A stretch of DNA of 40,623 nucleotides from an uncultured Microcaldota archaeon (GCA_903884505.1 CAISET010000036.1:72741-113363); one strand, 5' to 3'; positions 8,881 to 40,623 are shown, numbered from the stretch's first letter. The notes: generated from the sequence alone by a model not told the origin. A program made the numbers and translations.

Positions 8881-10808
8881 ATTGCCTTCGAAATCGCGGC
8901 TATCGCGTCCGGGTTCTCCACGGTTGAGATGTCACCGAGGTCCAAGCCCAGATACTGCGCCTTCACAGCCCTTCTCACAATCTTCGCAGACCTGGTTTTC
9001 GGAAGCGCGCTCACGAATTTCAGCTCGGAAGGCCTCATAGTCTTTCCGAGCGATTTGGTCACCTGCTCCATAAGCTCCTTCCTCAGGACATCCCCTGGCT
9101 GGTTGCCCGGCTTCAGGACCGCGAAGCAAACTATCCTCTCGCCGCTGAGCGCATCAGGCACCCCGATTGCCGCTGCCTCGCTCACAGCTTTGTGCTCAAG
9201 CAAAGCAGCCTCAATCTCAGCAGGCCCTACCCTCCTTCCTGAAACCTTAATCGTATCATCGCTCCTGCCATACAGGAACCAAAGCCCGTCCTCATCAATG
9301 CTCGCCCAGTCCCCGTGGTACCAGACATTCGGCCACCTTGACCAGTAAGTCTCGATATACCTCTGCCTGTCATTCCAGAATCCCCTAGTCATGGACGGGC
9401 CTGGCTTCACTGCGACCAGGTGGCCCTTCTTCCCCCTCACAGGCTTCCCATTATCATCCCAGACGTCAATTGCCATCCCGAGGCTCGGGCAGGCGAGGGT
9501 GCAGGGCTTTAGCGGCGTAATTGGGAGCGCGAGCAGGAATCCGCCTATAATCTCGGTTCCGCCCGACCAGTTCAGAATGGGCAGTTTCCCCTTCCCTATC
9601 TTCTTGAACAGCCACATCCAGGAATCCGGATCCCACGGCTCGCCGGTTGAGCCCAAATAGCGGAGCGATGAAAGGTCGTTCTTCTCCGTCCAGGCATCTC
9701 CTTCCCGGATAAGGCCCCTCACGCCAGTCGGCGAAATGCCGAAATGCGTAATCCTGTACTTCTCAACCAGCTCCCAGAGCCGCGCGGGCGTGGGGTAGGT
9801 CGGAAGCCCCTCATAGAGCACAAGCGTCGCCCCGAAGGTCAAAACGCCAATTACCATCCAAGGGCCCACCATCCACCCGATATCCGAAACCCAGAAGAAT
9901 ATTGAATCCTCTTTCACGTCGAAGTGATACCTCACCTCTTTCGTAATCTGCGCGAGCGCGCCTCCGTGCACGTGCACGGTCCCTTTAGGCTTTCCCGTAG
10001 TTCCGGAGGAATAGATGATAAGGCACGGGTCCTCGCTGTCCATCCTCTCGGCCTCGCAATTCGCAGGCTGCTTCGCCATCAGCTCATCCCAGAAATGGTC
10101 CCTTCCCGCGTTCATCGGAACCTCAATCCCAAGCCGCCTGAGGACTATTACGTTCTTTACTGAGGGGCATTCCTTCAGCGCCTCATCCGCGCTCTTCTTA
10201 ATCTCGACCTTCCCTCCCTTCCGCACCCCTCCATCCGCCGTGAATAGGACTTTCACTCCGGCATCCTGCAGCCTTGTCTGCAGCGGTTTGGGCCCGAACC
10301 CGGAGAAGACCGGCACTGCAATCGCGCCAATCTTAATCGTTGCAAGCATCGCGATTGCCACTTCAGGCACCATTGGCATGAAGAGCGCAACCCTGTCCCC
10401 CTTCACAACGCCCAATGACTTGAGCATGTTCGCGCACTTGTTCACCTCTTCTGAGAGCTGCGCATAGGTGAATCTCCTGCTCTTCCCGTCCTCCGCCTCC
10501 CAGATGAGCGCGGTCTTCTTGGCAAGCCTCTTCGCATGCCTGTCCAGGCAGTTGTAGACCATATTTATTTTTCCGCCGACGAACCACTTCGCCCACGGAA
10601 TCCCCTGCGACGTATCCAGGACCTTCCTGTAGGGGGTGAACCACTCAATTCCCATATCCTTCATCGCAGCATCCCAGAACCACTCGATGTCCCCGGTTGA
10701 GCGGCTCACAAGCTCCTTCCAGTCCCTGATTCCATTCTTCCTCATGAACTGCGAAACATTCGACTTCTCCAGATAGTCCCCATACGGCTGCCAGACAATC
10801 TCGGCCAT
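8877..10808 (-). CDS. Acetyl-/acyl-CoA synthetase (AMP-forming, ANL family)
   Basis: Activates a carboxylic acid as an acyl-adenylate and transfers it to CoA. The 643-residue protein has the short N-terminal ACAS domain, the P-loop YSSGTTGKPKG (about 264-274), the core GDW, the hinge GRSDDTIKVSGRRVGP and the C-terminal catalytic lysine in KTRSAKIVRR (near residue 607). The motif usually reading WWQTETG in acetyl-CoA synthetases is NWSGGTEI here, closer to acyl-activating enzymes of the acetoacetyl-CoA synthetase or plant AAE17 type, so acetate may not be the substrate. The ATG at 10808 follows GAGGGTGA by four bases; the longer open frame upstream (to 10934) has no such support. Confidence 0.92.
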   Translation of the reverse strand: MAEIVWQPYGDYLEKSNVSQFMRKNGIRDWKELVSRSTGDIEWFWDAAMKDMGIEWFTPYRKVLDTSQGIPWAKWFVGGKINMVYNCLDRHAKRLAKKTALIWEAEDGKSRRFTYAQLSEEVNKCANMLKSLGVVKGDRVALFMPMVPEVAIAMLATIKIGAIAVPVFSGFGPKPLQTRLQDAGVKVLFTADGGVRKGGKVEIKKSADEALKECPSVKNVIVLRRLGIEVPMNAGRDHFWDELMAKQPANCEAERMDSEDPCLIIYSSGTTGKPKGTVHVHGGALAQITKEVRYHFDVKEDSIFFWVSDIGWMVGPWMVIGVLTFGATLVLYEGLPTYPTPARLWELVEKYRITHFGISPTGVRGLIREGDAWTEKNDLSSLRYLGSTGEPWDPDSWMWLFKKIGKGKLPILNWSGGTEIIGGFLLALPITPLKPCTLACPSLGMAIDVWDDNGKPVRGKKGHLVAVKPGPSMTRGFWNDRQRYIETYWSRWPNVWYHGDWASIDEDGLWFLYGRSDDTIKVSGRRVGPAEIEAALLEHKAVSEAAAIGVPDALSGERIVCFAVLKPGNQPGDVLRKELMEQVTKSLGKTMRPSELKFVSALPKTRSAKIVRRAVKAQYLGLDLGDISTVENPDAIAAISKAI

Positions 10809-32117: not shown

Positions 32118-32879
32118 ATGATAAACTCATTCTCAGAAGAAGATTGCAAGCGCCTCTTGACCGTGATGCTGTTAACGGATGGCTATTTTGGTTTCGTTAA
32201 CGGTCGCTATCCGAAATTTGCCTACTACTCAAATGACCCCATCCTGCTCGACATCTTTGAAAAACTTTTCCTTAAGGCGTACAGCATGAAGCGGTCACAC
32301 CGCGGCGCGTCAGAGATTTATTACAAGCAGATAGGTCCCTGCACAAACGCCTATTCGGACTTGATTGCCATTTGCGGTGATCTTAACAAGAAGACCTGCC
32401 CGGATTTGCATTTCCTATCCGGCTGTAACCGCGAGGTTAAGCGCTTTGCTCTGCGGCTAGGAATGAGCGCCGAGGGCTACGTGAGCGTTTCAAGGAAAGA
32501 TAACGGCTCACTGCGCACATTGCTCGGATTCGCCTGCGCAAACGAAAGGCTGGGCGAGGCGTGGGCAAAACTGTTCAGAGACGAAGGAGTGAACATGCGG
32601 CTGCGCCGCGATGCACATGTCAGCACCGGCATACATGGGATTGAAACGGTCGCGCACGACGACATCATCGCCTTTGAGCGGTTCGGCGGGTTCTTGGATG
32701 GCGTGCGCGTCCAGAAAGGAAAACGGTTCAAAGGCGTCGAGAAAAACGCCGTATTGCGCGCATGCGTGGCATTTATAAAACGCATCCGAGAAAAACAACT
32801 GCGCGGCTACACCGCCGATTCAGATGCGGTTTTTTGGAATCGCATCGGAGCGGAGGTCGATCCGGCTATGCAGGGGTAA
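32118..32879 (+). CDS. LAGLIDADG-like homing endonuclease candidate
   Basis: 253 residues. Two LAGLIDADG-like helices are visible: LLTVMLLTDGYFGF near the N-terminus (catalytic Asp in TDG) and RFALRLGMSAEGYVSV near the middle (Glu in AEG), each followed by beta-strand-like sequence as in a single-chain double-motif enzyme. The match is by motif and spacing only. The gene ends with TAA at 32877-32879, inside the first ten bases of the tRNA-Leu gene. Free-standing endonucleases beside tRNA introns can spread those introns, so the position is suggestive. Alternatively it could be a WhiA-like or other LAGLIDADG-fold DNA-binding protein. Confidence 0.6.
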   Translation: MINSFSEEDCKRLLTVMLLTDGYFGFVNGRYPKFAYYSNDPILLDIFEKLFLKAYSMKRSHRGASEIYYKQIGPCTNAYSDLIAICGDLNKKTCPDLHFLSGCNREVKRFALRLGMSAEGYVSVSRKDNGSLRTLLGFACANERLGEAWAKLFRDEGVNMRLRRDAHVSTGIHGIETVAHDDIIAFERFGGFLDGVRVQKGKRFKGVEKNAVLRACVAFIKRIREKQLRGYTADSDAVFWNRIGAEVDPAMQG

Positions 32880-32909
32880 TGCGGCAGGAAAGTCTTCCGC
32901 ATCCCGAAC
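32879..32909 (+). other. tRNA-Leu intron 1, between acceptor and D arms (about 31 nt)
   Basis: The insert carries the perfect hairpin ATGCGG/CCGCAT and follows position 9. GGGG of the acceptor can pair with TCCC, leaving bulges TAA and GAA, so a relaxed bulge-helix-bulge is possible, but its predicted cut would leave two extra bases. The exact junctions are uncertain by about two bases. Confidence 0.6.
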
Positions 32910-32940
32910 GCCAAGCCAGGTCAAAGGCGCAGCGCTCAGG

Positions 32941-33044
32941 TAACCCTTTTCGGTTGGCAACGCTCGCTCGCAGCGTGTCTGCGGCTCGCTCGCTGCCATC
33001 TCCGAAAAGCGTTAACGGAAAACGTTAACGCAGGGGTTTGAGGA
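32941..33044 (+). other. tRNA-Leu intron 2, canonical 37/38 site (104 nt)
   Basis: A textbook bulge-helix-bulge: exon CTCA (32935-32938) pairs with TGAG (33039-33042), the bulges are GGT and GAA, and intron AACCC (32942-32946) pairs with GGGTT (33034-33038). Inside are TTTTCGG/CCGAAAA and the nine-base-pair hairpin GCGTTAACG/CGTTAACGC with a GAAAA loop. Confidence 0.8.
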
Positions 33045-33080
33045 ACGCTGTCTCTTAGGAGTTCGAGAGTTCAAATCTCT

Positions 33081-33111
33081 CCCCCTGCACTCAGTCCTAG
33101 ACTCAGAGCAG
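33081..33111 (+). repeat. Direct repeat copy 1, probable att site at the tRNA-Leu 3' end
   Basis: 31 bp beginning with the last nine bases of the tRNA (CCCCCTGCA) and continuing CTCAGTCCTAGACTCAGAG. It matches copy 2 with one mismatch. Confidence 0.6.
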
Positions 33112-33151
33112 TCCGAAGGAGGCCTGCACGGAGTCCAGGGCAGGGCTTACA

Positions 33152-33182
33152 CCCCCTGCACTCAGCCCTAGACTCAGAGCAG
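33152..33182 (+). repeat. Direct repeat copy 2 (tRNA-Leu 3' end and flank)
   Basis: 31 bp, 71 bp downstream of copy 1 and identical except T to C at the sixth base after the tRNA end. It contains no other tRNA sequence. It lies 52 bp before the integrase gene. Confidence 0.6.
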
Positions 33183-33184
33183 AC

Positions 33185-33206
33185 AGTCTGCACAAGCGTG
33201 CAGACT
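33185..33206 (+). repeat. Inverted repeat upstream of the integrase
   Basis: AGTCTGCAC and GTGCAGACT form a perfect nine-base-pair stem with the loop AAGC, followed at once by a smaller hairpin CTTCG/CGAAG. It could be a recombinase arm site, an operator or a terminator for the tRNA transcript. Confidence 0.45.
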
Positions 33207-33234
33207 TCGGCACGAAGCCCGAAATCACCCTTCC

Positions 33235-34461
33235 ATGGAGAAGATACACATGGGAAACGGGTTTGAAATACACAAAAGCCAGAGGAACTTCGAGCAGGCC
33301 GTGGCCCGGCTCGACAAGGACAGCGAGGTAAGCGCCGAGAACAGGAGGCTCATCCTGTCCTTCGCCAAAATGCGTTTGGCGAGGGGGTCGAGCCGCCTGC
33401 GCGTCGTGAAATGCGTCTACTGCATGCGCTTCCTCGCGAAGTGGTTCAAGAAGCCATTTGACAAGGCCACCAAGAACGAATTGATAGAACTCGTCGGGGA
33501 AATAGAGAACAAGGATTACGCCGAGAACACGAAGTACGACTTCAAAATAGTCCTGAAAATGTTCTACAAGTGGCTGAAAGGCAACGACGAGACCTTCCCG
33601 CCGGAAATCGCCTGGCTGAAGCCCAAGCTGAACAACCACGCCCACAAGCTGCCAGAGGAGCTAATCACGGAACGGGAGGTCTTCAGCATGGCGGAGGCCG
33701 CGGACCACCCGCGAGACAAGGCCCTGATCCTCGCCCTCTACGAAACCGGGTGCAGGATTGGCGAGATGCTCTCGCTGAGGATGAAGAACGTCATCTTCGA
33801 CCAGTACGGCGCAATCCTCCGCGTAACCGGCAAGACCGGCGACCGGCGCGTGCGGATAATCAGCTCCGCGCCAACGCTGGCTTCTTGGATAAGCATCTAC
33901 GCGGACGCCAAGAATCCCGAGGCCCCGCTCTGGCCGCCGATTTCGAACGCCCAAAGGCACAAGGGCGAGCCTGCGGAGTACCGCTCCATATACGTGAGAA
34001 TCGCGGAGATTGCGAAGAAGGCAGGCGTAAACAAGCGCGTCTATCCGCACCTTTTCCGCCATTCCCGGGCGACTTCCCTGGCCGGGAAGCTGACCGAGGC
34101 CCAGATGAAGGAGTATTTCGGCTGGGTTCAGTCGTCGGAAATGGCCTCCGTGTACGTCCACCTTTCGGGTCGCGACGTTGACAACGCGCTTCTGGCGTTA
34201 CAGGGAATGGTGAAGCCGGAGGACAAGAAGGAAGAACTGCTTAGGATATGCGCTTGTCCGCGTTGCAAGGAGCAGAATTCGCCTATTGCAAAGTTCTGCC
34301 TGCGCTGCGGCACGCCAATGGACGTCACGATAACCGCGCAAATCGAGGAGGAAAGGAAGTCCGGCGACAACCTGATGAACCAGCTGATGAAGGACGGCGA
34401 ATTCAGGGAACTGCTACTCAGGAAGGCGACCGAGCTCGGTTTTGACAGGCCGGTCGTCTGA
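33235..34461 (+). CDS. Tyrosine recombinase / integrase with C-terminal zinc ribbon
   Basis: 408 residues. An N-terminal SAM-like core-binding domain (about 15-125) is followed by the catalytic domain with Arg174 (GCRIGEML), a Lys in GKTGDRR, HLFRH (His272, Arg275) and the nucleophile Tyr307 in VYVHLS. All the catalytic positions are present, so it is probably active. An added zinc ribbon (CPRC, then CLRC, about 338-362) follows, then a charged tail. Its position next to duplicated tRNA 3' ends marks it as the integrase of the element to its right. The ATG at 33250 is an alternative start, and no clear TATA box is seen. Confidence 0.9.
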   Translation: MEKIHMGNGFEIHKSQRNFEQAVARLDKDSEVSAENRRLILSFAKMRLARGSSRLRVVKCVYCMRFLAKWFKKPFDKATKNELIELVGEIENKDYAENTKYDFKIVLKMFYKWLKGNDETFPPEIAWLKPKLNNHAHKLPEELITEREVFSMAEAADHPRDKALILALYETGCRIGEMLSLRMKNVIFDQYGAILRVTGKTGDRRVRIISSAPTLASWISIYADAKNPEAPLWPPISNAQRHKGEPAEYRSIYVRIAEIAKKAGVNKRVYPHLFRHSRATSLAGKLTEAQMKEYFGWVQSSEMASVYVHLSGRDVDNALLALQGMVKPEDKKEELLRICACPRCKEQNSPIAKFCLRCGTPMDVTITAQIEEERKSGDNLMNQLMKDGEFRELLLRKATELGFDRPVV

Positions 34462-34554
34462 GGCCTTCCTTTCCTTCAGCATTTTCTTCAGCTCCAGAAG
34501 CCATTCGGGCAGGAACGGCTTCAACTCTTCAACCGTCAGCTCTGCTTTTCCCAT
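34414..34554 (-). CDS. Possible 46-residue protein antisense to the integrase end
   Basis: The frame from ATG 34554 encodes an amphipathic helix (VEELKPFLPEWLLELKKML) with a charged tail, and overlaps the last 48 bases of the integrase. The helical composition looks protein-like, but there is no Shine-Dalgarno sequence or clear TATA box. It may be only an antisense open frame. Confidence 0.25.
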   Translation of the reverse strand: MGKAELTVEELKPFLPEWLLELKKMLKERKASDDRPVKTELGRLPE

Positions 34555-34590
34555 GCTTATCTCTTGTCGTGGCGGTTCTCTTATCCAACC

Positions 34591-34606
34591 GTGCCGAATT
34601 CGGCAC
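34591..34606. promoter_or_regulatory. 16-bp perfect palindrome, operator candidate
   Basis: GTGCCGAATTCGGCAC is self-complementary and is extended by AC/GT after one mismatch. It lies in the 287-bp gap between the integrase and the HTH gene; apart from the doubtful short frame, that gap holds only palindromes. Confidence 0.4.
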
Positions 34607-34657
34607 TGTAATGCAGGCTGATTTTCTGGCTTCCAGTTCCGCGCTTTTTCCCTAGTT

Positions 34658-34696
34658 GTTCCTAGGAAAGTTTCCGCCAAACGATTTCCTAGGAAC
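34658..34696. promoter_or_regulatory. Paired palindromes upstream of the HTH gene
   Basis: GTTCCTAGGAAA and TTTCCTAGGAAC are exact reverse complements of each other 15 bp apart, and each half contains the palindrome TTCCTAGGAA. The centres are 27 bp apart. This is a likely double operator, perhaps for the small HTH protein encoded 52 bp downstream. It could also form a 12-bp hairpin. Confidence 0.5.
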
Positions 34697-34748
34697 GGCT
34701 CAGTCAGCGGCTAAGCCAATATTCCCGGCCCGGCAGAAGCCCTGCTCG

Positions 34749-34949
34749 ATGGTCGCCCAGGACTTGTTCGTGAAGCTGTTGGACCTCATTCCCGAGGAGC
34801 GCGTCAGCGTGCACCAGCTCACGTGCAAGACCGGCCTAGACCACCGCACCATCAAGAAATACCTCGACCTGATCATCCAAATCCAGAACTCGAAGAAAAT
34901 CGTAAAGGAGCAGGTCGGGCTGCGCGTGCTAGTGAGACGGGAGAAATGA
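34749..34949 (+). CDS. Small winged-helix/HTH DNA-binding protein
   Basis: 66 residues. The sequence SVHQLTCKTGLDHRTIKKYLDLI has the spacing of a helix-turn-helix, followed by short strands as in a wing. AATATT near 34720 is centred about 28 bp before the ATG and would give a leaderless transcript. Two paired palindromes lie just upstream, so it may regulate itself and the integrase. Its TGA stop forms the palindrome TGATCA with the stop of the convergent nuclease gene. Confidence 0.6.
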   Translation: MVAQDLFVKLLDLIPEERVSVHQLTCKTGLDHRTIKKYLDLIIQIQNSKKIVKEQVGLRVLVRREK

Positions 34950-35948
34950 TCAATCCATTCCTTTTTCTCGCTTATGTGTTATTTCTATTGCCTGCCGTAT
35001 GCTCTTGCTCGTAAACAATGTGTCGATCATGCACCAATATCGTCCGTTTGACCAAATGTCTTTTTCAGTCGACAAGCGATTCGGCAATTCCTTTCTTGGT
35101 TCAATTTTCTCCCCTAAGTAAAGCAAGTAGTAGTTACACAGCTCCCCTTTCTTGATTTCAGGTATGAACGAGTGCATATCAGTTACTATCTCATACTTGT
35201 CCACATGATGAATTGTTTGCAGTTTTCCGCCAAAACGGAAAGCGATATAGTTTGGAGGGATTTCGGGCCAGTTTTTCCCCTGCGGGTAGAAGTAGTGTTT
35301 CCTTTTGTAAACAACGTCCATCCAAGATATCTTGCTCCATGACGGAGTCGAATCAGCTAATGATACAACATACGCGTAGTTAGACTCATGATTTTCCATA
35401 ATCGCAACCTCCTTAATGTAGTCCCTCAACTCACCCAGGATAAGTTTTTCCTTGTTTGCTACGGCGCCATGTGTTTCGTCGATGATGCCGATTAAATCAG
35501 CCCAGCGCAAGGGCGTGATTGGAACATTGTAAAGTGATTCGGGATATGTGAAATGTACAAACTCGTCCTTGCAATCGCTAAGAATCACAAACCGCCGGTT
35601 TCTGTGTCTAATTCCTCTGAAGCGAGGTAAATATCTTTTTAGTTGGTCGGTTGTCGGAAGCGTCCATCCCTTTTTTGCTTCGATGATAATGAGATGCTCG
35701 TTATCGAGCAAGATTTCGATATCAGTAAAACCTGCGTGTTTACTGGATTCTTGGAGTTTAATTACGGCATTACTAAACTTGACATTTCGATATACTCTTT
35801 TGATCAGTGTTTTGAGGAATCTTGGAGACTTCGCAATCGCATAGCCCAGACTAAACGTAAGCGAGTTTTCATCGCTACCTAAGAGGTCAAACCTGGTTTT
35901 TACTTCACTCCCATGTGCGAATAAACTCGAATTGATATGTCTGCTCAT
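34950..35948 (-). CDS. PD-(D/E)XK nuclease, probable restriction endonuclease
   Basis: 332 residues. The nuclease core is visible near residues 72-95: FTDIEILLDNEHLIIIEAKKGW, with an acidic residue in the first strand and E-A-K in the second. A glutamine or charged helix (TTDQLKRYLPRF) follows, as is usual in this fold. The rest is unrecognised. The gene is clearly richer in A and T than its neighbours and uses different codons, a sign of recent acquisition. It is divergent from a DNA methyltransferase 113 bp away. The ATG at 35948 follows GGTGG; GTG at 35951 is an alternative start. Confidence 0.6.
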   Translation of the reverse strand: MSRHINSSLFAHGSEVKTRFDLLGSDENSLTFSLGYAIAKSPRFLKTLIKRVYRNVKFSNAVIKLQESSKHAGFTDIEILLDNEHLIIIEAKKGWTLPTTDQLKRYLPRFRGIRHRNRRFVILSDCKDEFVHFTYPESLYNVPITPLRWADLIGIIDETHGAVANKEKLILGELRDYIKEVAIMENHESNYAYVVSLADSTPSWSKISWMDVVYKRKHYFYPQGKNWPEIPPNYIAFRFGGKLQTIHHVDKYEIVTDMHSFIPEIKKGELCNYYLLYLGEKIEPRKELPNRLSTEKDIWSNGRYWCMIDTLFTSKSIRQAIEITHKREKGMD

Positions 35949-36061
35949 CACGCCACCAATTATATGATACCTATCTCATCTCGCTGCGACTTAATAACCC
36001 TACACAAAAATGCCTAATTCTCCACGAGTGGAAATGACACCCACGCGACACCAAGTAGCGC
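35949..36061. promoter_or_regulatory. Divergent promoter region of the nuclease and methyltransferase genes
   Basis: An A+T-rich 113-bp gap with CATATAATT (minus strand, about 35960-35968) and CTTAATAA (plus strand, about 35990-35997) as the best TATA candidates. Neither has ideal spacing. Confidence 0.3.
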
Positions 36062-36904
36062 ATGGAACCGAAACACTTGGTCGTAATCGGCGACTCGCGA
36101 AACATGCGTGAAGTGAAGGACGAGTCCGTGCAGCTCGTGGTGACTAGCCCGCCGTACTTCAACGTCAAGGACTACGGCACGGAGAACATCGGCTCAATCA
36201 ACGACTTCCACGAGTACCTCCTCGAGATGCAGCGCGTCTTCAGCGAGTGCTACCGCGTCCTTGAGAAGGGCCGCTATGCCTGCATCAACATCTGCGACGT
36301 GATAAGCCACGAGGCGAAATACCCGATTCCCGCCCACTATGTCCTGCTCCTCCAGCGCGCGGGCTTCGAGTACCGCGAGGACATAATCTGGCGCAAGCCA
36401 GCCGGAGTGGGCGCGAAGGCCGGAGCCGGGGCGGCTAAGCGCTTCGGCCTCTTCATCCAGCACCCGTACCCCATGTACTACTTCCCGAACAACATTTTCG
36501 AGCACATCCTCGTCTTCCGCAAGGGAAAGTTCGACTACAAGAAGGTCAGCCTGGAGGAGAAGGAGCGCGCCGAAGTCGACATCGAGATGGCGAAGGAACT
36601 CTGGAACTCGGACGTCTGGGACATGGTTCCCGAGACAAAGAACCAATACACGCAGGACAATCACCCGGCAATGTTTCCCGAGGAGCTGCCCGAGGCGTTC
36701 ATAAGGCTTTACACTTTCGAGGGGGAAACGGTGCTGGACCCGTTCCTCGGAAGCGGCACGACCACGAAGGTTGCCGCAAGCCTTGGCCGGAGGTCCGTAG
36801 GCTACGAGCTGAACCCCGACTACCTGCCGCTAATCCGGAAGAAGTCCGGCATCGCCCCACACGACCTGCGAATAGTTTTCCAAAAGGAGGTGGATGAAAA
36901 ATGA
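36062..36904 (+). CDS. DNA methyltransferase (amino-MTase, beta class)
   Basis: 280 residues. It adds a methyl group to N4 of cytosine or N6 of adenine. Motif IV TSPPY (28-32) comes before the AdoMet-binding motif I, DPFLGSGTT (about 226-234), the order of the beta class, with the target-recognition region between them (KRFGLFIQHPYPMYYF and following). A TAG lies in frame one codon before the ATG, so the start is fixed. The last four bases overlap the start of the first pilin gene (ATGA), which ties the methyltransferase to the conjugation operon. It probably protects the element or its partner nuclease's sites. Confidence 0.88.
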   Translation: MEPKHLVVIGDSRNMREVKDESVQLVVTSPPYFNVKDYGTENIGSINDFHEYLLEMQRVFSECYRVLEKGRYACINICDVISHEAKYPIPAHYVLLLQRAGFEYREDIIWRKPAGVGAKAGAGAAKRFGLFIQHPYPMYYFPNNIFEHILVFRKGKFDYKKVSLEEKERAEVDIEMAKELWNSDVWDMVPETKNQYTQDNHPAMFPEELPEAFIRLYTFEGETVLDPFLGSGTTTKVAASLGRRSVGYELNPDYLPLIRKKSGIAPHDLRIVFQKEVDEK

Positions 36905-37212
36905 AAAAGAACCTGTTAGTGAGCACGCTCTCGCTGCTAGCCCTAATGGGCGTCGCGGCGGCAGCGGAGATAACCATCCCGCCCGACCAGCCGATCTGCC
37001 GGCTTTATTCCCTGATAAGGCTGTTTGGCACAATCGGCGGAGTCCTGGTTGCGGCCTACGCGGGCTTCCTGCTCGCCACGAGCCACGACACGACCGAGCG
37101 AAACAACGCCAAGAGCCTGGTTTCGGGCGTCATACTGGGCCTGATAATCATCTGGATTGCGCCCCTGCTCGTGAAGAACCTGGTCGGCGCGGGAGACGTC
37201 TGCGGGTGGTAA
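36901..37212 (+). CDS. VirB2/TrbC-like pilin candidate 1
   Basis: 103 residues. A signal peptide (1-22, ending AAAA before E23) is followed by two membrane helices (about 36-59 and 72-95) with a short charged cytoplasmic-type loop (TSHDTTERNNAK), the architecture of conjugative pilins of the VirB2/TrbC type. Cys33 and Cys101 could form a disulfide. It is a paralogue of the next gene: both have an S-rich charged loop, GVI-x-GLI, a P in the second helix and a Cys near the C-terminus. The assignment rests on architecture and gene context. Confidence 0.6.
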   Translation: MKKNLLVSTLSLLALMGVAAAAEITIPPDQPICRLYSLIRLFGTIGGVLVAAYAGFLLATSHDTTERNNAKSLVSGVILGLIIIWIAPLLVKNLVGAGDVCGW

Positions 37213-37215
37213 GGA

Positions 37216-37440
37216 ATGGCGTTCGACTTCCTCGGGCTGGCCAACACCATCAAGGCGTTCGCCGTGTTCTTTGCCACGATAACCATTTCCTACGCCGGCC
37301 TGATGCTGGTGTGGAGCAAGAACGTGGAGCAGCGCGAGGAATGGAAGGAGGTCATCGCCGGAGTAATCATCGGGCTCATCCTCCTGTTCCTCGCGCCAAT
37401 AATCGCCTCCCAACTCGCGGGAGCGACGTACTGCAGGTGA
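37216..37440 (+). CDS. VirB2/TrbC-like pilin candidate 2
   Basis: 74 residues with two membrane helices (about 11-33 and 46-67) and a charged loop (WSKNVEQREEWKE). It resembles the preceding gene over its last 60 residues, including GVIIGL and a Pro in helix 2, but has no signal peptide. It starts four bases after the first pilin's TAA with AAGGA just before the ATG, so both are made together, perhaps as two subunits of one pilus or as pilin and assembly partner. Confidence 0.6.
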   Translation: MAFDFLGLANTIKAFAVFFATITISYAGLMLVWSKNVEQREEWKEVIAGVIIGLILLFLAPIIASQLAGATYCR

Positions 37441-37445
37441 CTCGA

Positions 37446-39095
37446 ATGAACAGAACGCTCGCCTTCCTAGTCGTTTTGACCGGCGTCACAAGCGCCTCGT
37501 CCTTCTGCGACGACGGCCTCACCCACCAGGACTTCGTCTGGGACACTGCTTACTCGCTCCCGGCAAGGCCGCCAGACACGCTTTTGGACAACTGCCAGGG
37601 ACTCGGCTTGTCCAACCTGGCGCTCTGCAACGCGACCCAGTTGAACGCAAGCGAGCGCAAGCAGCTGATCCTTGACGATTTCATACAGAACAACGGCTAC
37701 CCACCGTTCGCCGAAGCCGAGGACTGGAATGGCAGGCTGCAGTTCGGCGAATACGCGCCTGACGGAACCTACGTCCGCGAGGGAGGACAAATCCGGAACG
37801 CGTGGGTGAGGATAACCTCCGTAAGCCCCGCCGTGATTGACGCGAGCGAGAACAAGACTTACGTCAACGCGACCGGCAAGATGCGCATGGCGTACTCGTT
37901 CAAATTCGTGGTGCCGTACATGACGTTCCCGGAGGACTGCGGGACGGACTACCAAATCTGCGGCTACGACTACAAGCTCGAAGCGTTCAACAACGGGCAG
38001 AGTCTGAACAACAATAACCAGCCGCAAGCCGACTTCGCCGTGGCCGAGAGAGTCCACAACGCGCAAAACAACCTCTCCGCCGTCCTAACGGTTCGCTCCC
38101 AGTTCCTCATCAGGCACTACCGCTGGGTTGAACACTGCACCACGAGCGAGGACGGGAAAACGACCTGCGTCAAGACATGCGACTATTCGCACACGACCGA
38201 CTACCACGACTCCGTCCGCCTCACGGACGAAAAGCCGGTTTACTACTACGGCTTCATCGCCTTCCAGAACGCCTTCATCGACTCCTTCAACGGAGACATG
38301 GCGGACGGCTGGCTATTCGTCGTTTCCAATGAAGACTTCAACAACATCAAATTCTCCATAGCCAACTCTTCCATCACGCTCCAAAGCAGGCAGTACCAGC
38401 TCAACCCCGACCTCGCGCCATACAACGCCCTGACGCCCACCTTCGTGACAAACCCCGACCGCCTGCAAGCCCGGCAAATAAGCATCCTCTCGCGCGAAAA
38501 CAAGACGCTCTCCGGCCAGGAGTTCGACTCCTTCCTCAAAGTCACCGAGCCCCAACTGTATTATCTCCTAACCCGGTTCCTCGGAATAAACCTGACGACG
38601 CTTCCAATAACCTTCTACGGAGACAAGATCCACTTCCTCGCTCCGGCCAAGCAGCTCAACTGCACGGTCGAAATCAACTCCCACTTCGGCAGGCAGGTAA
38701 TAGCCAACGCCTGCCGCTACGACGCCAACCAAAAGCCGGCAATAAACCTCACTGTCAACGCAACGGATGGCGGCTCGTTCCAAGCCAATGCGCGATTCTA
38801 CGACAACTCCACCAACGCGCCCCTAGCTGGCAAGAAGATCCGCTTCGCCTACGGCTCCCAGAACGTCACGGTCGAAACCAATAGCCAAGGAATTGCGTCT
38901 GCCTTGCTCGACTACTCGCCTGGAGTTTCAACCGTTTCAGCCGAGTTCATTACCGACTTCGAGACGAAGAGCGCGAAAGCCTACGCAGTCGTTCCAACGA
39001 AGCCGCCCGAGTTCCTGAACGACGTCTGGTACTGGTTCGTTCTGGCGGTCATCGTCTGGCTGTCCTACGGCTTCCTTAGGGGGTGGTTCAAGTGA
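37446..39095 (+). CDS. Large secreted protein with C-terminal membrane anchor, part of the conjugation cluster
   Basis: 549 residues. A signal peptide (MNRTLAFLVVLTGVTSA) leads an extracellular region with several Cys and N-glycosylation sequons. Near residues 430-510 there is an Ig-like beta domain (GSFQANARFYDNS, GKKIRFAYGSQNV, NSQGIASALLDY) of the kind often found in surface proteins, and one C-terminal helix (WYWFVLAVIVWLSYGF) ends in a basic tail. The start at 37446 has GGTGA seven bases upstream; the open frame extends much further back but has no support there. It could be a mating-pair or surface-contact protein. No family is recognised. Confidence 0.7.
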   Translation: MNRTLAFLVVLTGVTSASSFCDDGLTHQDFVWDTAYSLPARPPDTLLDNCQGLGLSNLALCNATQLNASERKQLILDDFIQNNGYPPFAEAEDWNGRLQFGEYAPDGTYVREGGQIRNAWVRITSVSPAVIDASENKTYVNATGKMRMAYSFKFVVPYMTFPEDCGTDYQICGYDYKLEAFNNGQSLNNNNQPQADFAVAERVHNAQNNLSAVLTVRSQFLIRHYRWVEHCTTSEDGKTTCVKTCDYSHTTDYHDSVRLTDEKPVYYYGFIAFQNAFIDSFNGDMADGWLFVVSNEDFNNIKFSIANSSITLQSRQYQLNPDLAPYNALTPTFVTNPDRLQARQISILSRENKTLSGQEFDSFLKVTEPQLYYLLTRFLGINLTTLPITFYGDKIHFLAPAKQLNCTVEINSHFGRQVIANACRYDANQKPAINLTVNATDGGSFQANARFYDNSTNAPLAGKKIRFAYGSQNVTVETNSQGIASALLDYSPGVSTVSAEFITDFETKSAKAYAVVPTKPPEFLNDVWYWFVLAVIVWLSYGFLRGWFK

Positions 39096-40045
39096 ACAGA
39101 TTCGTTTTCGCGTTATTCCTGCTGGCTTTGCTTCCGCTCGCCTTTGCCCAAGGCACTAATTCGACAACGACCTCGGCCTGCCAAGGAAACAACGACCTGC
39201 TCAACACGCTGACCAACCTGCCGGGCTGCATAGTCGAGACCTTCTTCAACTACGTCGTTTCCGGCCTCATCTCCACAACTCAAGGCCTGGTGGACGCCAC
39301 GTTCGGGTTCATCTTCTCCTCGCCAAACCCCGCGTGGTTCTGCACGCCCTACAATGCAGTTCTGAGCCTCCTGGAAAGCCTTTACTCCATCGTCCTGATG
39401 GGAATCGCCTTGTTCTTCATCGTCAGGTCGAACGACGTTTCAGGCCGCACGACCGCCAAGAAGTGGCTGGAAAAGATGCTCGTCATGATAGTCATCCTCT
39501 CGTTCTCCTTCCCGCTGTTCCAGATGATGCTCGACTTCAACACCTACTTGGCGACCAACCTGGCAAGCGAATCAATGAAAGGCATCTTCAGCTCACCGGC
39601 CGGCTTTACGTCCGCCATTTTCTCGCTTATCATACTCCTCCCGATGATTTCGTTCATGATGCTGACCTTCGTCACGCTCCTCATCCGCTACCTCCTAATT
39701 CCGTTCATGCTCCTGCTGTTCCCAGTCGCCATCTTCCTTTACTTCATCCCCTTGACCGAGTCGTGGGGCAAGACGTTCCTCAAGATAATCGCCATCCTCG
39801 TGTTCATGACCACGATTGACGCCCTCATATTGCTGGGCCTCAGCTCGCTGTTCAACGCTTCCGACCCCAACCTGGCGAACACGTTCGTGAGCGCGTTCAT
39901 GACGCTCTACGGCTTCGGGGCGCTCGGGATAATCAACCTCGTCCTGTTCCTGCTTGCCATCCTTTCCATCGTCACGCAGAGCAGGGCCATCCTCACCGTG
40001 GTCGGCATCGGACTGATTGGCAAGGCGCTGAAGGTGCTTCTATGA
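39092..40045 (+). CDS. VirB6/TrbL-like polytopic membrane protein
   Basis: About 317 residues. A signal peptide (LFLLALLPLAFA) is followed by a Cys-containing segment and then about six membrane helices (YSIVLMGIALFFIV, MLVMIVILSFSF, SAIFSLIILLPMISF, LIPFMLLLFPVAIFLYF, IIAILVFMTTIDALILLGL and a last pair). VirB6-like proteins form the inner-membrane channel of type IV secretion systems. The GTG at 39092 overlaps the previous stop (GTGA) and has AGGGGGTGG before it. Assignment is by topology and position between pilins and a VirB4-like gene. Confidence 0.62.
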   Translation: MNRFVFALFLLALLPLAFAQGTNSTTTSACQGNNDLLNTLTNLPGCIVETFFNYVVSGLISTTQGLVDATFGFIFSSPNPAWFCTPYNAVLSLLESLYSIVLMGIALFFIVRSNDVSGRTTAKKWLEKMLVMIVILSFSFPLFQMMLDFNTYLATNLASESMKGIFSSPAGFTSAIFSLIILLPMISFMMLTFVTLLIRYLLIPFMLLLFPVAIFLYFIPLTESWGKTFLKIIAILVFMTTIDALILLGLSSLFNASDPNLANTFVSAFMTLYGFGALGIINLVLFLLAILSIVTQSRAILTVVGIGLIGKALKVLL

Positions 40046-40623
40046 GCTACGACATCCCGGACAAAATCCAGTACAAGGAAAAGATAGTGTTCGGGCTGGA
40101 CTTCAAGCAGCTCGGCTACGCCTGCCTGTTCGGCATCGCGGCTTTCCTGTCCCTCAACCTGCCGTTGGAAGGCGACGCCAAGCTCGCCGTCCCCTTCATC
40201 TTCGTCATCCTTGGCGTTGCGTTCATCTTCCTGAACCTCGAGAAGTTCCTCCAAGACCGCTTCGCCTTTTACACCAACGTCCAGTTCGGCGGCGCGCTGG
40301 ACAAGAAAGTCCAGGAGTTCATCGGAGTAAGCAAAATCGAGAACGACGCCGTCTACCTAAAGAACGGCGAACTCCGCGCCATCGTGGGCGTCATCCCAAT
40401 CAACTTCCAGAACCTAGATGATGGCCGCAAGAAGTCGGTAATCCTCAACTACCGCGACTTCCTAAACCAGCTCGCCCACCCCGTCCAAATCCTCGTCCGC
40501 ACCGTGAACGTCAATCTGGCGGAGTACTTCGCGCACAAGGACGAGAAAATCCGGCAGTCAAAAAACCCGCAGCTCGTGGCCCTCTACGAAGAGTTCAAGC
40601 TGTGGGAGCAGAACTTCGTCAAG
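40042..40623 (+). CDS. PrgI-like N-terminus of a VirB4/TraC-type conjugation ATPase, 3' end outside the window
   Basis: 194 residues are visible, open to the window edge. Two membrane helices (about 27-46 and 51-68) follow a short N-terminus with PDKIQYKEKIVFGL, the PrgI pattern. The following part, IGVSKIENDAVYLKNGELRA with IPINFQN and a segment like FLNQLAHPVQILVRTVN, matches the N-terminal domain of VirB4/TraC family ATPases. The Walker motifs would lie beyond the window. The ATG overlaps the VirB6-like stop (ATGA). If correct, it supplies the energy for pilus assembly and DNA transfer. Confidence 0.65.
   Translation, partial: MSYDIPDKIQYKEKIVFGLDFKQLGYACLFGIAAFLSLNLPLEGDAKLAVPFIFVILGVAFIFLNLEKFLQDRFAFYTNVQFGGALDKKVQEFIGVSKIENDAVYLKNGELRAIVGVIPINFQNLDDGRKKSVILNYRDFLNQLAHPVQILVRTVNVNLAEYFAHKDEKIRQSKNPQLVALYEEFKLWEQNFVK

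Follow-up and report, generated by a model that had tools for sequence, protein, structure and literature searches.

A Micrarchaeota integrative, probably conjugative, element at an intron-containing tRNA-Leu gene

Introduction

Conjugative elements without a relaxase are known among archaea from the Sulfolobales and the thaumarchaea (PMC9905601; PMC6563490). Both the Sulfolobus conjugative plasmids and the thaumarchaeal ICEs, of which the latter are integrated, combine VirB4 with membrane-channel genes, most of them have a VirB4/VirD4 pair, and the thaumarchaeal elements also carry TFIIB and often FlaI/TadC-type parts (PMC6563490). The DNA import systems Ced and Ted, which are domesticated T4SS derivatives by description, use a minimal VirB2/VirB6/VirB4 set without a relaxase; for these, a separate pair of proteins, HerA-NurA, has been proposed to prepare the DNA (PMC9905601). 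How DNA is prepared for relaxase-free conjugation in archaea is an open question. With regard to integration, archaeal tyrosine integrases are reviewed as inserting into tRNA genes (PMC8371274).

Here we analyze a 40,623-nt stretch of DNA (hereafter, the window) from a 1.51-Mb genome in 37 contigs. The original prediction, made from the sequence alone, placed in it the left end of an integrative, probably conjugative, element of a DPANN-type archaeon, and the host is indeed a Micrarchaeota archaeon from the same family as Ca. Fermentimicrarchaeum (G001). The end of the window (32870-40623) is best explained as the left part of a Micrarchaeota integrative, probably conjugative, element, a reading to which we assign a probability of roughly three in four. 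The element is real and is a new variety of archaeal ICE, for which we infer the transfer step itself.

Like the thaumarchaeal ICEs and Sulfolobus plasmids, the element is archaeal and joins VirB4 to membrane-channel genes with no recognizable relaxase; unlike most of them, it has no detected VirD4, and it is characterized by PF18895 pilins, an Ig-like surface protein and a PrgI-VirB4 protein, joined in relatives by Orc1/Cdc6 and by a nuclease-like domain at the end of VirB4. The minimal relaxase-free gene set resembles that of Ced and Ted, but the Micrarchaeota T4SS sits in integrative elements, and the VirB4 of relatives scores far higher against the CD1110 and mycoplasma ICE families than against CedB. 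A VirB4 profile matched below the curated cut-offs, a sub-threshold PrgI/VirB3-like N-terminus and the T4SS_pilin family (PF18895), the last over its cut-off, recall those of MPF_FATA ICEs (Clostridium CD1110-type and mycoplasma ICE) and with the T4SS of Patescibacteria (PMC12102498), whereas the missing relaxase and VirD4, the archaeal Orc1/Cdc6 and the nuclease-like VirB4 tail set it apart from both. The integrases have the catalytic residues, tRNA 3'-end targets and preserved tRNA genes of their archaeal counterparts (PMC8371274), except that one Micrarchaeota clade uses a C/D-box guide sRNA gene. As anticipated for a lineage with few described conjugation systems, no prior description of a T4SS in Micrarchaeota or other DPANN was found in the open papers searched. 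The family described here would give the Micrarchaeota, which are largely uncultured and reduced, a defined integrative T4SS family with ends, target genes, replication initiator and defence cargo.

Results and Discussion

Organization of the Element

The tRNA-Leu gene and the element genes fill the last 7.7 kb of the window, in the order integrase, small helix-turn-helix (HTH) protein, nuclease, methyltransferase, two VirB2-like pilins, Ig-like surface protein, VirB6-like protein and PrgI-VirB4 (Table 1). Every complete ORF of the window is open, and the operon is tightly packed. The ATGA or GTGA overlaps claimed for the T4SS run occur at the methyltransferase-pilin 1, surface protein-VirB6 and VirB6-VirB4 junctions, whereas 3-nt and 5-nt gaps separate pilin 1 from pilin 2 and pilin 2 from the surface protein. 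Contig C36 (113363 bases) stops at the final base of the window, inside VirB4, and neither attR nor the remainder of VirB4 was present when the assembly was searched; the right side of the element is therefore deduced from relatives.

Table 1. Features of the element and its target in the window
Feature	Start	End	Strand	Evidence
Left end of integrative, probably conjugative, element	32870	40623		downstream of complete tRNA-Leu(CAG) gene
tRNA-Leu(CAG) gene with two introns; element target (attB/attL side)	32870	33089	+	cloverleaf fold; comparison with G003
31-bp repeat, copy 1	33081	33111	+	last 9 nt of tRNA plus 22 nt
Probable relic of earlier insertion at same tRNA	33090	33151	.	holds a left end and the right-end motif GGGCTTACA
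31-bp repeat, copy 2; probable attL core of present element	33152	33182	+	repeat comparison; distance to integrase
Tyrosine integrase with C-terminal zinc-ribbon	33253	34461	+	Pfam PF00589, 4.8e-17; ORF open from 33235
Palindrome TTCCTAGGAA, candidate operator 1	34659	34668	.	motif count
Palindrome TTCCTAGGAA, candidate operator 2	34686	34695	.	motif count
66-aa HTH protein, candidate regulator/excision factor	34749	34949	+	77% identical to G015 element gene
PD-(D/E)XK-like nuclease, accessory cargo	34950	35951	-	motif FTDIEI..HLIIIEAKKG; 36% homologue in G304 element
DNA N6/N4 methyltransferase	36062	36904	+	PF01555, 3.6e-49; 80% to G301C47
VirB2-like pilin 1	36901	37212	+	PF18895, 6.2e-7, over cut-off
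VirB2-like pilin 2	37216	37440	+	PF18895, 1.4e-8, over cut-off; ICE pilin NF045849, 5.5e-6, below cut-off
Secreted surface protein; Ig/FN3-like rod, anchored in the membrane at its C-terminus	37446	39095	+	moderate model, pLDDT 70.6
VirB6-like polytopic membrane protein	39092	40045	+	hydrophobicity; conserved place beside VirB4
PrgI-VirB4 fusion; first 194 aa, up to the contig end	40042	40623	+	PrgI, 1.8e-4, sub-threshold

The Target tRNA Gene and Traces of an Earlier Insertion

The target is a complete tRNA-Leu gene, interrupted by an intron of ~31 nt at position 8/9, between the acceptor and D arms (about 32877-32909), and by a second of ~103 nt in the anticodon loop, after the anticodon (about 32941-33043). 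The spliced RNA has 86 nt and the anticodon CAG, and folds into a cloverleaf with a 7-bp acceptor and D, anticodon and T arms. The same two-intron gene, next to the same neighbor gene, is found in the sister genome G003, where the intron sequences have changed while the stems still pair. Because the introns occupy two positions, ARAGORN made no correct call for this gene, with or without introns; a search of the left arm against Rfam gave only a sub-threshold tRNA match over the 3' part and two chance matches. A 252-aa ORF with a LAGLIDADG-like LLTDGYFG motif (window 32121-32879) ends inside the 5' end of the tRNA gene; it has no Pfam match and is absent at the same place in G003.

Since the gene is complete, the 3' end noticed in the original prediction is the true gene end. 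The claim that this end is duplicated stands with respect to a 31-bp repeat, whose two copies are 30/31 identical and 71 bp apart, but only 9 nt of each copy (CCCCCTGCA) belong to the tRNA, and the gene itself is no partial copy. A third copy, expected as attR, was not found: the whole assembly has only two, with the contig ending inside VirB4. We rejected the idea that these two are attL and attR, because the integrase does not lie between them and because copy 2 holds an end motif of other elements. This motif, GGGCTTACACCCCCTGCA, spans the start of copy 2 and is the tRNA-distal end motif beside the integrases of two other loci, L081 and L087. In both, the end nearest the integrase reads as the reverse complement of GGGCTTACACCCCCTGCA, and L087 has a full tRNA-Leu at its far end; thus, GGGCTTACACCCCCTGCA marks the tRNA-distal end of an element. 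Moreover, copy 2 lies ~92 nt from the integrase start, matching the spacing in relatives with a single tRNA end. From the motif and this distance, the stretch between the tRNA gene and copy 2 is probably the remnant of an older, nearly deleted insertion that holds copy 1, with the present element starting at copy 2. Alternatively, all 134 nt would be a single element arm with an internal repeat. The stretch is common to the window and the sister genus (97% over 134 nt in G003). We also considered G003 as an empty site and set this aside, given that its 3.9-kb contig ends 105 nt past the tRNA and so supplies no empty site for this exact locus; no integrase was found in that genome. Locus L087 (6840-12612) is itself a compact element of ~5.7 kb whose integrase and full tRNA-Leu lie at opposite ends; it is a candidate for a small mobilizable relative without a T4SS.

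Integrase, HTH Protein and Cargo

The tyrosine integrase has the intact active site attributed to it, with R174, K200, H272, R275 and Y307 invariant (numbering of the 408-aa ORF). Both hallmarks of a tRNA-targeting tyrosine integrase, the active-site residues and a preserved tRNA 3'-end target, are thus found. The enzyme belongs to a family with 79 loci in GTDB genomes, mostly Micrarchaeota, and is the only member found in its own genome. It would recombine an attP core with the 3' end of tRNA-Leu(CAG), leaving the tRNA gene intact; an intact tRNA after insertion is read from the sequences of tRNA-targeting relatives and bounded elements, and is presumed for the right end of the window's element.

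The predicted HTH gene is present, with its start refined to the ATG at 34749 and no Pfam match over cut-off. The palindrome TTCCTAGGAA occurs twice in the window, both times upstream of this gene, versus 0.02 occurrences expected. It recurs near the HTH genes of G009, G015, G308 and four G301 contigs, and lies ~45-60 bp inside the right ends of G009, G015 and G308. The HTH protein probably binds TTCCTAGGAA both upstream of its own gene and near the right end, and may thereby control expression and excision, which would fit a combined regulator and excision factor.

In the predicted nuclease/methyltransferase pair, the Pfam match establishes the methylase, which is kept in most elements examined. 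The nuclease assignment relies on a PD-(D/E)XK-like motif and on a 36% homologue in the G304 element that itself matches PDDEXK_4 weakly (3e-4); the window protein has no Pfam match, and PADLOC returned nothing. The complete clusters of relatives add Orc1/Cdc6 and defence-like cargo. Both G009 and G308 have type III restriction genes, homologues of which stand in the gene listing of G015; G009 also has an AbiU/AIPR protein, and G304 an MvaI/BcnI enzyme and a Shedu-like protein.

The T4SS Genes

Of the predicted run of pilin, surface, VirB6-like and VirB4-like genes, both pilins score over the PF18895 cut-off and the VirB4 start is PrgI-like below threshold, while the surface and VirB6-like proteins have no Pfam match. 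Foldseek searches with the surface-protein model gave only generic Ig/FN3-like matches of low TM. The VirB6-like protein has homologues of 41-60% in relatives, and the truncated VirB4 is 53% identical to the N-terminus of a 1051-aa VirB4 from G015, which includes a TraG P-loop domain. No Walker motifs were seen in the window's own VirB4, since the contig stops within the gene. The components of an ICE mating-pair T4SS, namely pilins, VirB6-like protein and VirB4, are therefore present, with a motor that is complete only in relatives. The G015 VirB4 matches the conjugation families CD1110 (4e-84) and mycoplasma ICE (2e-74), both below the curated cut-offs; the CedB model scored 52.7 bits against VirB4, with a cut-off of 700.

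The same genome has a second, diverged T4SS on another contig (G000:C33:36433-41388; L033-L034, L021), with an 890-aa VirB4, a VirB6-like protein and a surface protein. Its proteins are 24-31% identical to those of the window, and related genes occur in the family members G001, G006 and G007. This system is possibly inherited and domesticated.

A Probably Mobile Family in Micrarchaeota

The VirB4 N-terminus found matches in 12 of 60 relatives, and the surface-protein profile was patchily distributed, with matches in 28 of 301 genomes of the class. About 10 related clusters, mostly in other Micrarchaeota, keep the gene set, and it is accompanied by a neighboring integrase in G009, G015, G301 (several), G302, G303, G304 and G308. 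Orc1/Cdc6 goes with the complete clusters; in G301C47 it directly follows VirB4, in convergent orientation, which predicts what comes after the window.

Whereas the window shows a left end only, repeat-bounded ends at a specific site were found for four elements of ~20-35 kb. The G009 element (~35 kb) has a 17-bp repeat, CGGACGGTCTGATGCAC, at local positions 8903 and 44045. That of G015 (~20 kb) has a 13-bp repeat, CGGACGGTCTGAC, at 38670 and 18705, which is weak alone (E 0.066) but credible because it sits in the same sRNA motif as the repeats of G009 and G308. In G308 a 39-bp repeat, 90% identical to its farthest copy and with its nearest copy ~26 kb away, makes a single left end and, on the right, three copies, a pattern suggestive of tandem accretion of elements. 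The G304 element (~23 kb) has a tRNA-Leu end at 32442 and right ends at 9525 and 3726. A cluster with an adjacent integrase in G035 was not accepted, since its tRNA is a 20-nt 3' fragment only and the two need not be one element. In one 1.7-Mb genome, G301 (JAPLWX), six or more VirB4 loci of the T4SS type belong to this family (L179-L188). In the closed Fermentimicrarchaeum genome, a 25989-bp unit that includes an integrase of its own occurs as three identical tandem copies (G001:C1:341001-418977; L246-L250), through either genuine amplification or misassembly of a circular element.

Between the window and G301, the integrase and methyltransferase are 67% and 80% identical, compared with only 61% for aIF2-gamma, as would be seen if the elements passed from one lineage to another. 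Bounded ends, several copies per genome, empty sRNA sites (see below) and this cross-lineage identity support horizontal movement of the family, as judged from sequence. The expectation of an integrative element at tRNA-Leu is supported, and the T4SS module travels with the integrase in relatives.

Two other readings were weighed. A fixed or decayed island, with integrase and T4SS as remnants that no longer move, would fit the contig end, the apparent reduction of an earlier insertion at the same site to ~70 bp, and the integrase fragment at tRNA-Leu and remnant at the sRNA in G001; however, the complete ORFs are open, the catalytic residues intact and the operon tight, and similarity across lineages exceeds that of aIF2-gamma, which makes decay improbable. 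It is more improbable still that the contig is mis-binned or chimeric and the element foreign to this genome. Although a 100%-complete bin lacks the remainder of the element and the contig ends abruptly, a single contig joins element to chromosome across the tRNA, the flank is syntenic with G003, and elements of this family are typical of Micrarchaeota.

A C/D-Box Guide sRNA Gene as a Second Target

In G009, G015 and G308, the left repeat consists of the 3' end of a C/D-box guide sRNA-like sequence, in which C (RTGATGA), C'-like and D (CTGA) boxes accompany the guide GACGGACGG. With 16S ACCGCCCGTC, a candidate target, the D guide pairs throughout but for the nominal target base, where A faces C. 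A pattern search found the sRNA in 25 of 60 relatives, nearly always once, versus eight matches for a reversed control pattern; in most copies the C box is at the right distance. An integrase or fragment starts 61-280 nt behind the sRNA in G001, G006 (L135, G006:C16), G009, G012 and G015, and an integrase also follows it in G308 (L138). None was detected behind it in G000, G004, G005 and others, so that empty sites are seen in relatives. DNA upstream of the sRNA is ~80% identical among G005, G006 and G001 up to the sRNA end and differs soon after.

The four sRNA-site integrases included in the integrase tree form one clade, with support of 100/100. On this sequence evidence, one integrase clade appears to have given up tRNA genes as targets in favor of a conserved C/D-box guide sRNA gene, where it uses the 3' end. 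Relative to the window, the G015 element has an HTH protein of 77% identity and an integrase of only 37%, whereas in G301C47 the integrase is 67% and the HTH protein 57% identical; we read this contrast as exchange of the integrase module, and of the target with it. The words sRNA, snoRNA and D box are absent from the integrase review (PMC8371274), and no earlier report of guide-RNA attachment sites was found in the limited set of open papers searched. A C/D-box guide-sRNA gene would thus be added to the attachment sites of integrases.

Probable Transfer Without a Detected VirD4 or Relaxase

The coupling ATPase and relaxase that the original prediction expected further to the right were not found in the relatives examined. 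No VirD4-type ATPase (PF02534) was detected in 14 genomes, including that of the window, with a control search positive in 5/14 known genomes; the VirB4 + VirD4 pair of the Sulfolobus/thaumarchaeal type is thus represented by VirB4 only. Likewise, no relaxase Pfam match occurred among the scanned genes of the G009, G015, G304 and G308 elements, a scan of part of the element genes that an unknown family could escape. The bacterial-type conjugation set is therefore incomplete.

Many DPANN archaea are host-associated, and a serious rival to conjugation is that the T4SS is used for other contacts, serving cell-cell attachment, protein delivery or DNA uptake, while the integrase only moves the island. 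Besides the lack of a detected coupling protein or relaxase, this fits the second, diverged T4SS of the same genome, found where the window's integrase is the sole one of its family, and the relaxase-free T4SS of epibiotic Patescibacteria have been read in this way (PMC12102498), as Ced and Ted serve DNA import. Nevertheless, the module repeatedly accompanies an integrase and Orc1/Cdc6 in repeat-bounded elements, patchily and in several copies per genome; its VirB4 is closest to conjugation families; and archaeal conjugative plasmids and thaumarchaeal ICEs also have no relaxases (PMC9905601; PMC6563490). On balance, we consider such other uses unlikely and favor conjugation.

If the element is conjugative, the excised circle would be replicated by its own Orc1/Cdc6, a gene seen in relatives. 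The DNA would then pass to a recipient through a minimal monoderm-type T4SS of VirB2-like pilins, Ig-like surface protein, VirB6-like channel and PrgI-VirB4 pump. The attR, Orc1/Cdc6 and VirB4 motor of the window's own element are assumed by analogy with relatives.

The C-terminal domain of the relatives' VirB4 offers a candidate for the missing processing enzyme. It has a conserved PDV...FEVETG motif, and its structural model (pLDDT 84) matched mostly PD-(D/E)XK nucleases in Foldseek, with a best E of 0.0089 and probabilities of 0.92-0.95, no match reaching E 0.001. In the window, VirB4 breaks off ahead of this domain. Judging from the model, the domain may ready DNA for transfer, cutting it at the pump in place of a relaxase; such a VirB4-nuclease-like fusion is a concrete, testable candidate for DNA preparation. 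Tentatively, and with odds that we place well short of even, we suggest a self-transmissible DPANN family in which PrgI, VirB4 and nuclease, as one polypeptide, replace channel adaptor, pump and relaxase, and in which an exchangeable integrase module switches between tRNA and C/D-box sRNA targets.

Stand-alone proteins with the VirB4-tail domain are also encoded shortly after integrases, at loci where no T4SS genes were found. At L094, L096, L102 and L105 an integrase is closely followed by such a protein, whose N-terminus is hydrophobic at L094, L096 and L102 at least; these four loci are possible mobilizable elements that borrow a T4SS.
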